From the NCBI GenBank assembly GCA_947472705.1, contig CANJDA010000003.1, forward strand, positions 1 to 32,611: DNA of 32,611 nt. Reading direction: 5' to 3'. A model generated the notes under the pieces. That model was not told the origin of the DNA and searched no databases. It was given only the letters and a program-made list of their open reading frames with translations. Both the position numbers and the translations under genes were made by a program. Below, one piece after another: positions 14,391 to 31,600 of the stretch (position 1 is its first letter; every line of letters starts with the position of its first letter). The DNA comes from Flavobacteriaceae bacterium. Lineage in GTDB: Bacteria > Bacteroidota > Bacteroidia > Flavobacteriales > Flavobacteriaceae.

Positions 14391-14780
14391 ATGGATAATT
14401 CCTATCCAATAGCAGAAAAACTCAAAAGTAAAAAAATCATAGATTTGTTATTCTCCGAAGGAAATTCGGTGAGTAAATATCCTTTGCGATTGGTTTATGT
14501 TCAACACGATTTTGATGAAAATATTGGAATTAAAATTGGCGTTTCGGTTTCTAAAAAATATTTTAAAAATGCTGTAGACCGTAATTATTTCAAACGCGTT
14601 TTAAGAGAATGTTATCGATTGAACAAATCCATTTTATTGGATAATCTTGAGGCAAAATATTGTTGTATGTTTTTCTATCAAACCAAAGAAAGATTGACCT
14701 ATGCCGAAATCAATGAAAAGACTATAAAGCTTTTTGAAAAATTTCGCAAACAGCTTGAAGAAGAAAAAAATGTTAACTAA
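14391..14780 (+). CDS. rnpA: Ribonuclease P protein component
   Basis: 129 aa; KIGVSVSKKYFKNAVDRNYFKRVLRECYRL matches the RNase P protein RNR signature. Confidence 0.93.
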   Translation: MDNSYPIAEKLKSKKIIDLLFSEGNSVSKYPLRLVYVQHDFDENIGIKIGVSVSKKYFKNAVDRNYFKRVLRECYRLNKSILLDNLEAKYCCMFFYQTKERLTYAEINEKTIKLFEKFRKQLEEEKNVN

Positions 14781-26337: not shown

Positions 26338-26345
26338 CAAAGATA
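26338..26345 (-). promoter_or_regulatory. Candidate -7 element for the methyltransferase gene
   Basis: Minus strand TATCTTTG (TAnnTTTG) 26 nt upstream of the ATG; abuts the parS-like site. Confidence 0.45.
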
Positions 26346-26360
26346 GTTTCACGTGGAACG
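26345..26360. promoter_or_regulatory. parS: parS-like ParB-binding site (second copy)
   Basis: AGTTTCACGTGGAACG: 14/16 identity to TGTTTCACGTGGAACA (reverse complement of canonical TGTTCCACGTGAAACA); the 14-bp core GTTTCACGTGGAAC is intact. Confidence 0.85.
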
Positions 26361-26365
26361 TAAAA

Positions 26366-28237
26366 TTATCTTCCCATATAAATTAATAAAACCGAAACAT
26401 CTGCGGGTGATACTCCGCTAATTCTTGAGGCTTGTGAAATGGTTACTGGGCGAATGGAAGAAAGTTTTTGCTTGGCTTCAATTGACATGGATTTAATTTT
26501 ATTATAATCGAAATTCTCCGGGATTTTGATATCTTCTAATCGGATTAATTTTTCGGCATTATTTCTCTCTTTTTCGATATATCCTGAATATTTCACTTGA
26601 ATTTCGGCTTGTTCTATAATTTCTTTATCTAAATCGTTTTCATTTATATACTGTTGCACTTTTTCGAATTTAAGAATGTCTTCTAATTCAATTTGCGGTC
26701 TAGAGAACACTTTAAACATCTTATCTGTTTGAATCATGGGTGCACTTTCTTTTTCAACTAAAATAGGATTGGCTTCTTCTTGAGTAACACTTGTTTCTTT
26801 GAAAAAATTTACCATTTTTTCGCTTTCATTAAACTTATATTCCATTCTTTTTAATCTCTTTTCAGAGACAAGTCCAATTTCATAAGCCTTAGCAGTTAAG
26901 CGGAAATCTGCATTGTCTTGGCGCAATAAGGTTCTGTATTCAGCACGAGAGGTAAACATTCGGTAAGGCTCTTCTGTTCCTTTTGTGATTAAATCATCAA
27001 TTAAAACGCCTATATAAGCTTCGTCACGACGTAAAATTAATGGCTGTTGTTTATTTACTTTTAAAGCGGCGTTTATACCTGCCATTAATCCTTGTGAAGC
27101 GGCTTCTTCGTATCCTGTAGTGCCGTTAATTTGCCCAGCAAAATATAAGCCTTCAACTAATTTAGTTTCTAAAGTATGTTTTAACTGTGTAGGCGGAAAA
27201 TAATCATATTCTATAGCGTATCCTGGCCGAAAGAATTTTACTTTCTCAAACCCTTCTACAGAGCGTAAAGCTTTAAATTGAATGTCTTCAGGTAAAGAAG
27301 TTGAGAAGCCATTAACGTATACTTCTACTGTGTCCCATCCTTCAGGTTCAACAAATAATTGATGTCTTTCTTTATCGGCAAAACGGTTTATTTTATCTTC
27401 AATAGACGGGCAATATCTTGGTCCAATACTTTTAATTCGTCCGTTGAACATTGGAGAACGATCAAATCCTTCACGTAGTATATTGTGTACTTCGTTTGAA
27501 GTATAGGTCATATGACACAATTTTTGGTGTGTCAAAGGTTTAGTTTCATCCGAATAAGAGAACTTATCTGGAACTAGATCACCAGGCTCCTCTCTCATTT
27601 TAGAATAATCTAATGAACGTCCATCAACTCTAGGCGGTGTACCTGTTTTCATTCTCCCTGATTCAAAACCTGCTTTTATTAAATCTTCAGTAATTCCATA
27701 TGCAGCGCTTTCTCCTGCTCTTCCCCCACCAAATTGTTTGTCACCAATATGAATTAAGCCGTTAAGAAAAGTGCCATTAGTTAGTACTACTGTTTTTGCT
27801 TTAATTTCAATTCCCAAAGAAGTTATTACTCCTTCAATTTTATTATTGGTAATTAATAAACCTTTCACCATTTCTTGATAGAAATCAAGATTAGGTGTGC
27901 GTTCTAACATTAATCTCCATTCTTCAGAAAAGCGCATACGATCTGATTGTACCCTTGGCGACCACATGGCTGGGCCTTTAGACTTGTTAAGCATTTTGAA
28001 CTGTACGGCTGTTTTATCAGAAACGATTCCAGAATACCCACCCAAAGCATCTATTTCTCGAACAATTTGCCCTTTTGCTATACCCCCCATTGCGGGGTTA
28101 CATGACATTTGAGCAATATTTTGAAGACTCATAGTAACCAATAAGGTTGAGCAACCCATGTTGGCTGAAGCTGCCGCTGCTTCACAGCCAGCATGTCCAG
28201 CTCCTACTACTATTGTATCGTACTTTTCTAAAAACAT
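26366..28237 (-). CDS. mnmG: tRNA uridine-5-carboxymethylaminomethyl modification enzyme MnmG (GidA)
   Basis: 623 aa; DTIVVGAGHAGCEAAAASANMG, NPAMGGIAKGQIVREIDALGG, TPPRVDGRSLDYS, RAEYRTLLRQDNADFRLT. Confidence 0.98.
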   Translation of the reverse strand: MFLEKYDTIVVGAGHAGCEAAAASANMGCSTLLVTMSLQNIAQMSCNPAMGGIAKGQIVREIDALGGYSGIVSDKTAVQFKMLNKSKGPAMWSPRVQSDRMRFSEEWRLMLERTPNLDFYQEMVKGLLITNNKIEGVITSLGIEIKAKTVVLTNGTFLNGLIHIGDKQFGGGRAGESAAYGITEDLIKAGFESGRMKTGTPPRVDGRSLDYSKMREEPGDLVPDKFSYSDETKPLTHQKLCHMTYTSNEVHNILREGFDRSPMFNGRIKSIGPRYCPSIEDKINRFADKERHQLFVEPEGWDTVEVYVNGFSTSLPEDIQFKALRSVEGFEKVKFFRPGYAIEYDYFPPTQLKHTLETKLVEGLYFAGQINGTTGYEEAASQGLMAGINAALKVNKQQPLILRRDEAYIGVLIDDLITKGTEEPYRMFTSRAEYRTLLRQDNADFRLTAKAYEIGLVSEKRLKRMEYKFNESEKMVNFFKETSVTQEEANPILVEKESAPMIQTDKMFKVFSRPQIELEDILKFEKVQQYINENDLDKEIIEQAEIQVKYSGYIEKERNNAEKLIRLEDIKIPENFDYNKIKSMSIEAKQKLSSIRPVTISQASRISGVSPADVSVLLIYMGR

Positions 28238-28239
28238 CT

Positions 28240-28662
28240 TTATTTTTGTTTCACGTGGAACATCTTCATTTTTTCTTCTTCTTTTCCTCGCATTATTAAC
28301 TCGTCGCTCTCGCTTTTATCTTTATATCCACAGTAGTGTAGTATTCCGTGAACCATCACTCTTTTTAACTCTTCTTCAAAAGAAACCTTAAATTCTTCCG
28401 CATTTTCAAGTACTCTTTCAATAGAAATGAATATATCTCCGTGTAATTCGTTTCCTATAGAATAATCAAAACTGATAATATCAGTTAGTGTATCATGATT
28501 GAGATATTGTTGGTTTAATCCTAACAAATAATCATCGTCACAGAAGATATAATTAATTTCGCCTTCATTCTTTTTTTCAGATTCAATAACATTGGAAAGC
28601 CAATCTGAAAAAACAGATTCGTGTTCTAAAATGAAATCAGATTCGTAATTAAAACTAATCAT
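28240..28662 (-). CDS. ybeY: Endoribonuclease YbeY (start reassigned to internal ATG at 28662)
   Basis: 140 aa from MISFNYESDFILEHE; HGILHYCGYKDKSESDE zinc motif; ORF-track start lies further inside the DUF4175 gene. Confidence 0.92.
   Translation of the reverse strand: MISFNYESDFILEHESVFSDWLSNVIESEKKNEGEINYIFCDDDYLLGLNQQYLNHDTLTDIISFDYSIGNELHGDIFISIERVLENAEEFKVSFEEELKRVMVHGILHYCGYKDKSESDELIMRGKEEEKMKMFHVKQK
28247..28262. promoter_or_regulatory. parS: parS centromere site (canonical ParB-binding sequence) inside the 3' end of ybeY
   Basis: TGTTTCACGTGGAACA on plus = TGTTCCACGTGAAACA on minus, 16/16 match to the canonical parS sequence; encodes M-F-H-V-K-Q of the YbeY C-terminus. Confidence 0.92.
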
Positions 28663-31600
28663 TGGATTTAAAATATTCTTGGACCTTTTGGTCAAAATTG
28701 GAGCGCAAAGGTAAACTTTGTCTGTTTAAAATTTCAATGCTATTCAAATATTCTTGAAGTTTGGTAGGCAAAGCATTCACATTGTTATTGAATTCCTTTT
28801 TATTAGTTTCTGATTGACGCTTTTTGTCTTCTCCCTGTTGTTGGATTGCTTTTTGTAATTTTAATAATTCATATTTTACATTTAAAATCTTTTGCATGGT
28901 TTCATTATTAAAACCCTTGTTAAGCAATTGCTTCTCAATTTGTTTCATTTGATCAAGCGCATTTTGCCCATTACCTCCAACACCTTGTTTGTTAAGTTCT
29001 TTTTCTAAAGCTTCTCGAAGTTGTTGTTGTTCTTTGTATATCTCCATGATAGCTTTAGCATCACCTTCTCCATCTTGCCCTTGTTCACCTCCTTTTTGTT
29101 CACCTTGGCCTTGCCCCGAGCTACCTCCCTTTTGCCCTTTATTTCCTTTGTTTCCTTGCTGTCCATCACCAGGTTTCTCGCCCTGTTGTCCTTGTTGCCC
29201 TTCTCCGGGTTTGTCCCCAGGTTTTTCTCCAGGTTTCTCACCTTTTTTCATTCCCTTCTTCATTTTATCACCTAAACCTTCCTGCTTCTTAATAATGTCT
29301 GGAAGTTGCATTCCTTCCCCTTGTCCTGGTTTTGGTTTTCCTTTTCCTTGTCCCTGCATTTGCATTTCCATTTGCATTCCCGTGAGAATGTCACTTAGCA
29401 TATCAGCCAATTTATTGGAAGCTGAAACAGCATACTGTTGGTGCGAATTTCCTTTTGGAACATTGGCTTCGACTAATGTTTCTATTGCTTTATCAACGTT
29501 GTATTGCACATTCCCGATTTCTTTTGTGATATCTTCTGCAATCTTTGGATTACGCAATGACATAGCAAATAAACTATCATCTACGTGTTTGAATTGTTGT
29601 TTTAAATCTTGTTGGACTTTTAAGTTTTTATTGAAAGATGGAGCACCTCGATTCAGGTTTTTGAACTGCTTCATCACATCTTCTTGTGAGAATGAATAAG
29701 CTAAAAGATTATCTAAAATTTGACGCAACATAGCCACATCTTCTTCCATTTGCTCTTCTTCACCAGATTGCATTTGTTCTTGCATTTGTTGGCTCATTTG
29801 CTTCATTTTTTTGGAAGCACTTTTTTGTTTTGGCTTTGCTTTAGCTTTTTGTTGTTTCTGCAATTGGTCTTTAGCATCCTTTAAATCTTCATCAATGCTT
29901 TTCTCCTTTTCATCGGTTTTTGGCAAATCCATAGGAGCTTTTAACTCTTTATTTTCTTTTTCTAAATCATTCAGTTCTTCTTGGAGTTTATCAAAATCTT
30001 TGTTTATTTCTTCTTGTTTTTCTGCATTATTTTCATCTGTTTTCTCAGATAGCTGATCTTGTTTTTCGGACAACTTGTTTAATTTATCGGCAATTTGTTC
30101 TGCCTTTTTCTCAACATAGTAACGTTTGGTTAATTCGACTAGTTGTTCCAAACTCTTGGTTTGATTTTTACTAGCTTGTTGGAATTTCTCCATCTTCTCA
30201 AATAACTCTTCTTTGCTTATTTTATCATTTAGCTTTTTGAGTTCATCCAACAATTTTTTATTTTTTTCTAAATCTTCTTTGGTTTTTTCTAAACGTTCTT
30301 GAAGCTGATCTTTCTTTTCGTCTTTTTTATCTGATTTGAATTTTTCAAGATTGTCTTTCATTTTCTCCGAGAACTCTTTCATCAACTCATCTTGTTGTTT
30401 TTGTCGTTGCAGAAAATCATCAATTTTTTGCTGATCTTTAAATTCTAAATTATCTTTTTCTTTACCCATTTTTTGGAGTTTTTCCATCTCAGATAATTGT
30501 TTGTCTTGGGCTTTTAACGATTTAGACAAAGAGTTAATATTTTGATTTTGTTGCTGCAGCATTTGGTCTTCTTTCTCTGCCTCAGTGGCAATTCTATTGC
30601 TAAAAACAGATGATTTTGTGCTTTTGAAATTATGAATAGCATCGTTATCAAAAATCTCAAAGTAGTATTCATATGAAACACCTTCTTCTACAGGAAGGTT
30701 ACTTGGAAATGAAAACACAAACTGATCGTAAACATCTTTTTTAACAGCAATAGGGGCGCGTTTAGCTGTAGTTGGCTTGTCTTTAGGGTAATAAATAATA
30801 AGTAGCTTAGACAAACCATAATCATCGGACACCTGCCCTAATACAAAGTTCTTATTTACTTTCAGACTATCAGGTGCATTGTCGACTGTTATGGTTGGGA
30901 ATTGGTCTTTGATAACTGAAATCTGATAATTCAGTTTTTCATAATTCTGAACCTTTGCATTTGATGTCAGGATTTGGTAATCTGTATTTTGCAAAATACT
31001 TTTTGACAAAGAGAATATGTTATCTGCTTTGGTAAATTTAAAATGATTATTGTCATTTACCCAGTCTACTTTTTGAGTAGCAAGAGTGTTCATCCTCCAG
31101 GTAACTTTAGTTCCTTCTGGGATAATGGCGTTCCCTGTTCCTTTAATAATTTCTGATTTCTTATTGAGGTAGCCTGGAAAATTCAACACCATTTCAAAAT
31201 TAGCGATAGAGGGCACAGTAACTACTTTTAATTCATAATTGTGAGACGAAATGTCGTTAGCTTCTATATGAAATTCTATGTCTTCAGCGGGCTTCGGAAT
31301 GACAAACTCAAATTCTCCTGCCTTGTTAATTTCCATAAAATAACTTTCATTGCCAATAAAAATCATAGCATTTTCAGGAACAACATTACCTACAGATTTC
31401 ACTTTTAAAAGAAAGTCCTTGTTCTGTTCGGTTTGTAAATTGTTATTCAACACAACAAATTCAAAGGGTGCTGGAGGCAAAAATTGTTGTTTAAAATGCA
31501 CTACCCTATTTAAACTCTGGGAAAGTATATCGCTTTTTCCAGAAATCATGAAAAACAAAAAGAACAATATCGGGATAACTGCCAAAGGCAAATATTTTTT

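Follow-up and report, generated by a model that had tools for sequence, protein, structure and literature searches.

Candidate chromosomal parS sites at both ends of mnmG in Flavobacteria

A palindrome that matches the ParB-binding site parS lies in the last codons of ybeY in a Flavobacterium, next to the start of mnmG. The question raised by this locus is whether the palindrome is a chromosomal centromere site, and whether such a site has written itself into the C terminus of a protein. We analyzed the window, that is, the whole 32,611-nucleotide stretch of DNA, together with its source assembly (Flavobacterium, 2.2 Mb in 236 contigs, 83% complete) and with sampled relatives.

Two parS matches at the ends of mnmG

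The initial annotation had described TGTTTCACGTGGAACA as the exact reverse complement of the parS 16-mer, located within the end of ybeY and 9 bp 5' of the mnmG start. Direct sequence comparison bore out the match, since site 1 agrees with the parS consensus TGTTYCACGTGRAACA at 16 of 16 bp, and the coordinates bore out the position, with 9 bases (28238 to 28246) between the site and the mnmG ATG at 28237. However, site 1 is not a single hidden site. A second copy, AGTTTCACGTGGAACG, had been overlooked on the other side of mnmG, where it starts 5 bases beyond the stop codon (Table 1). Site 2 is exact across the 14-bp core, which is identical in the two copies, and only the outer bases differ; the base differences that define parS were taken from PMC7383237. 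The gene is therefore bracketed by a pair of sites with a core-to-core distance of 1,902 bp.

Table 1. Features of the mnmG locus in the window
Feature	Position	Strand	Sequence or evidence	Context
mnmG/gidA (tRNA-modifying enzyme)	26366..28237	-	Pfam GIDA 6.1e-161	
ybeY (endoribonuclease)	28240..28662	-	Pfam YbeY 2.5e-30; ORF; tail comparison	
parS site 1 (candidate)	28247..28262	.	TGTTTCACGTGGAACA on +	within last ybeY codons, 5' of mnmG
parS site 2 (candidate)	26345..26360	.	AGTTTCACGTGGAACG on +	3' of mnmG

On the minus strand, the 3' end of ybeY reads ATG AAG ATG TTC CAC GTG AAA CAA AAA TAA (M-K-M-F-H-V-K-Q-K-stop), and the residues F-H-V-K-Q are encoded by codons that include parS. The gene probably starts at the ATG at 28662, rather than at the mechanically called TTG at 28695.

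Across the whole assembly, GTTYCACGTGRAAC was found twice, both matches being the mnmG pair about 1.9 kb apart, while base composition predicts about 0.018 copies in 2.2 Mb and the reversed motif, used as a control, gave no match in the same assembly. These counts rule out a chance origin.

Conservation of the pair among relatives

We then searched for the 14-mer in related genomes. Of 121 sampled genomes of Flavobacteriaceae, 120 carried it, usually in exactly two copies, and the pairs listed in this family sample were usually spaced by about 1.9 to 2.1 kb. The phylum sample gave matches in 277 of 299 genomes, mostly two per genome, and the other Flavobacterium genomes of that sample held 3 to 10 copies each. 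Arrays of up to 8 parS copies lie 5' of mnmG at four Flavobacterium loci (L035, L037, L039 and L144); copy number therefore varies inside the genus.

For the mnmG locus itself, the window was compared with 80 loci from named genomes. Among these 81 loci, which share descent and are not independent trials, parS was found on both sides of mnmG in 70, upstream only in 8, downstream only in 2 and on neither side in 1. Within the 1.06 Mb of sequence covered, 172 of 192 motif copies were no more than 200 bp away from the nearer end of mnmG; the median distance was 16 bases to the ATG for upstream copies and 9 bases from the stop codon for downstream ones. The CACGTG core of parS was present in all sites counted, and sequence conservation fell steeply beyond the core, the flanks being poorly conserved. 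In more distant families, the sites were mostly still beside mnmG, often with at least two copies upstream near ybeY, and one sampled distant family had no site within about 1.5 kb of mnmG.

The exact 14-mer was absent from 22 of the 299 phylum genomes, all of which encode a ParB_N protein. Three genomes with a ParB_N protein (G344, G237 and G300) had no 14-mer even when one mismatch was allowed; their sites may have diverged or may lie in unassembled sequence. At several loci (L065, L083, L085 to L087 and L035) and in phylum genomes such as G198, G259, G303 and G314, CACATG/CATGTG replaces CACGTG, often in paired sites, which suggests that these variants are tolerated by ParB or co-evolve with it. 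Kordia is among the carriers of the CACATG variant.

ParB, ParA and the replication origin

A ParB_N protein was found in every family and phylum genome tested, including those without the exact 14-mer, and parA and parB were adjacent in both relatives for which the full locus was read. Specificity for parS has been tied to ParB residues of the R173/G201 type (Jalal et al. 2020, PMC7383237). Among eight chromosomal ParBs inspected, a pattern search recovered the parS-type GK-x-R and N motif in six (the ParBs of L114 and L266 fell outside this first search pattern) and the GH-x-RA motif in all eight. Judged by these motifs, the ParB of the clade carries the parS-reading residues.

The source assembly itself gave a different picture. 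The ParB_N search found no chromosomal ParB in this 83%-complete assembly, and the ParA search gave only weak, partial matches and no close ParA. The sole ParB_N match (G000:C224; L003/L268) was rejected as the cognate ParB: the protein has at least 528 residues, is cut by the contig end and is without the parS-type helix motif. It probably comes from a mobile element. The initial annotation had named the lack of a ParB in the genome as something that would refute its proposal. A ParB_N match was present in 50 of 50 sampled genus genomes of at least 90% completeness, which suggests assembly incompleteness rather than a true loss.

Proximity to the replication origin had also been suggested. 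In four complete relatives, GC skew was sampled and fitted without reference to parS. The skew origin was at 2.28 to 2.76 Mb in Polaribacter BM10 (pair at about 2.45 Mb), at 0.36 to 0.52 Mb in G060 (pair at 0.36 Mb) and at 0.94 to 1.04 Mb in G023 (pair at 0.998 Mb), so that the pair was on or near the origin in three of the four. In the fourth, G079, the pair (1.006 Mb) was about 0.25 Mb off the skew origin (1.22 to 1.36 Mb). In contiguous 400-kb stretches, the distance between the pair and the local skew minimum came to about 13 kb for BM10 and about 45 kb for G060. No clusters of the DnaA-box-like TTATMCACA were found near the skew minimum, and coding-strand bias did not clearly indicate an origin at parS for three of the four genomes. 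By GC skew, the suggestion of origin proximity is supported in three of the four relatives.

The position relative to parAB was another matter. In complete relatives, dnaA and parB are each roughly 0.8 to 1.3 Mb from the mnmG pair, and the parB-parS distance, obtained by subtracting positions by hand, was roughly 0.8 to 1.2 Mb in G060, G023, G079, G121, G325, G290, G239 and G224. With parB that far off in all eight, these Flavobacteriaceae show no linkage of parAB to parS. In the window, rnpA (14391-14780, plus strand; Ribonuclease P protein, 5.8e-19) lies about 12 kb from mnmG. In many bacteria rnpA and mnmG are part of the gene set adjoining oriC, and their nearness here is possibly a remnant of an origin gene cluster.

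Like the chromosomal parS of Bacillus subtilis, Caulobacter and Pseudomonas, the sites follow a 16-bp palindrome, occur in few copies and, as seen from the relatives, go together with an origin-region location and a ParB. Unlike the ParABS systems of those bacteria, the flavobacterial pair brackets mnmG and has parB and dnaA at a great distance, and the parB-parS distance in complete relatives departs from the usual linkage. According to passages of PMC10197239, gut-bacterial origins do not always coincide with dnaA and are marked, separately from dnaA, by parS clusters; Bacteroides caecimuris and Muribaculum are among the bacteria concerned. The Flavobacteria resemble these bacteria in that parS, not always dnaA, serves as the origin marker. 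The origins in those passages were partly defined from parS clusters, whereas here the skew was fitted independently of parS; the same passages contain no description of the mnmG bracket.

Probable segregation sites, their alternatives and the YbeY tail

Very probably, this Flavobacterium has its chromosomal parS sites in the two palindromes, at which ParB would load in the origin region. The consensus match, the copy number, the bracketing of mnmG, the conservation and the position at or near the GC-skew origin of three of the four complete relatives all count for it. Counting against it are the failure to find the organism's own chromosomal ParB or a close ParA, the offset in G079, the distance between parB and parS and the 22 phylum genomes without the exact 14-mer. 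By established ParABS biology, ParB dimers, as CTPase clamps, would load at both sites and slide across the flanking DNA, mnmG included, and ParA would move the partition complex, which would make the origin region the first to segregate. As for the choice of mnmG, the sites may go back to an ancestral origin cluster and have remained in the narrow gaps beside an ever-present gene while dnaA and parAB moved away.

The paired sites could also form a functional unit in which ParB clamps cover mnmG and couple expression of this tRNA-modifying enzyme to the segregation or copy number of the origin. Such a coupling would then explain why Flavobacteria have retained the bracket on either side of the gene. 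We regard this as unlikely. Distinctly less likely still is that the sites are primarily operators that a CACGTG-binding protein, ParB or a different one, uses to repress or insulate mnmG, with segregation secondary. The occurrence of sites at both mnmG ends over a large clade would fit such a role, and ParB spreading can reduce the expression of neighboring genes in other bacteria. However, several loci outside Flavobacteriaceae have both sites upstream of mnmG and one other family, as described above, has none nearby, and bracketing is therefore dispensable; the location in the origin region, moreover, points to segregation first. Slightly less probable again is that the palindromes act not as DNA sites but at the RNA level, as hairpins of the mnmG mRNA that serve in processing, translation control or termination. 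A perfect palindrome is able to fold into a hairpin, and the sites occupy both ends of mnmG, with the upstream copy falling in the ribosome-binding region. A hairpin would be weakened by the pair-breaking variant GTTCCACGTGAAAC, which creates a C-A mismatch, yet this variant was as frequent as the G-U-compatible ones upstream (9 versus 9) and more frequent downstream (22 versus 9), and on these asymmetric-variant counts the hairpin reading was rejected. Both sites of the window are the mismatching version in the mnmG sense, no Rfam family matched, and a motif with two copies genome-wide and a core equal to parS also argues for a DNA site.

Whether the protein or the DNA site has dictated the ybeY codons was addressed by comparing YbeY homologues. 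The site is inside the 3' end of ybeY in 40 of the 78 loci with a readable ybeY. In 38 of these 40, YbeY ends in [M/L]FHV[E/K] with a few residues after it, encoded by parS; at the other two (L101 and L104) the site is read in another frame and gives VSRET and VPRET. None of the 38 loci without an exact parS inside ybeY has the FHV tail. In 36 of them the exact site is located 3' of the ybeY stop codon, and the remaining two (L065 and L083) combine an FHMEQ tail with the site variant GTTCCACATGGAAC, which has CACATG. Because the form of the tail tracks the position and the variant of the site, the YbeY tail follows the DNA site, not the reverse. The proposal that parS shaped the YbeY C terminus, with the tail occurring only where parS lies inside the gene, was thus supported. 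It is hardly credible that FHV[E/K] is a functional tail whose codons are kept for the sake of the protein, with an incidental match to parS. The shared frame of the in-gene sites is what would favor it, but a single ancestral overlap explains that frame, the palindrome is kept outside ybeY where YbeY lacks FHV, the two frame-shifted loci encode other residues and the second copy beyond mnmG encodes nothing. The tail is best read, from these comparisons, as a passive by-product of parS: the sites of 14 to 16 bp would occupy the narrow gene boundaries around mnmG, and one that falls before the ybeY stop would be translated as a tail that other YbeYs do without. Since the motif is best explained as a centromere read as codons, FHV[E/K] should not be taken as enzymology.

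In Flavobacteria, the parS pair is an inexpensive marker by which the origin region can be recognized from sequence; because dnaA and parAB are distant, origin calls based on dnaA would mislead. The role of site position also becomes testable in this clade, since parS has no linkage to parAB there and yet stays at one gene. The site type itself is known, and the novelty of its conserved place and of the YbeY imprint appears modest; we found no description of the mnmG bracket or the imprint in the open-access literature, although subscription journals may have one. In Pseudomonas aeruginosa PAO1, 9 of 10 parS sites are inside coding sequences (PMC4368675). As in PAO1, a centromere-type site is here read as codons; unlike in PAO1, it supplies the C terminus of YbeY at roughly half of the loci, and the reading frame is mostly the same.
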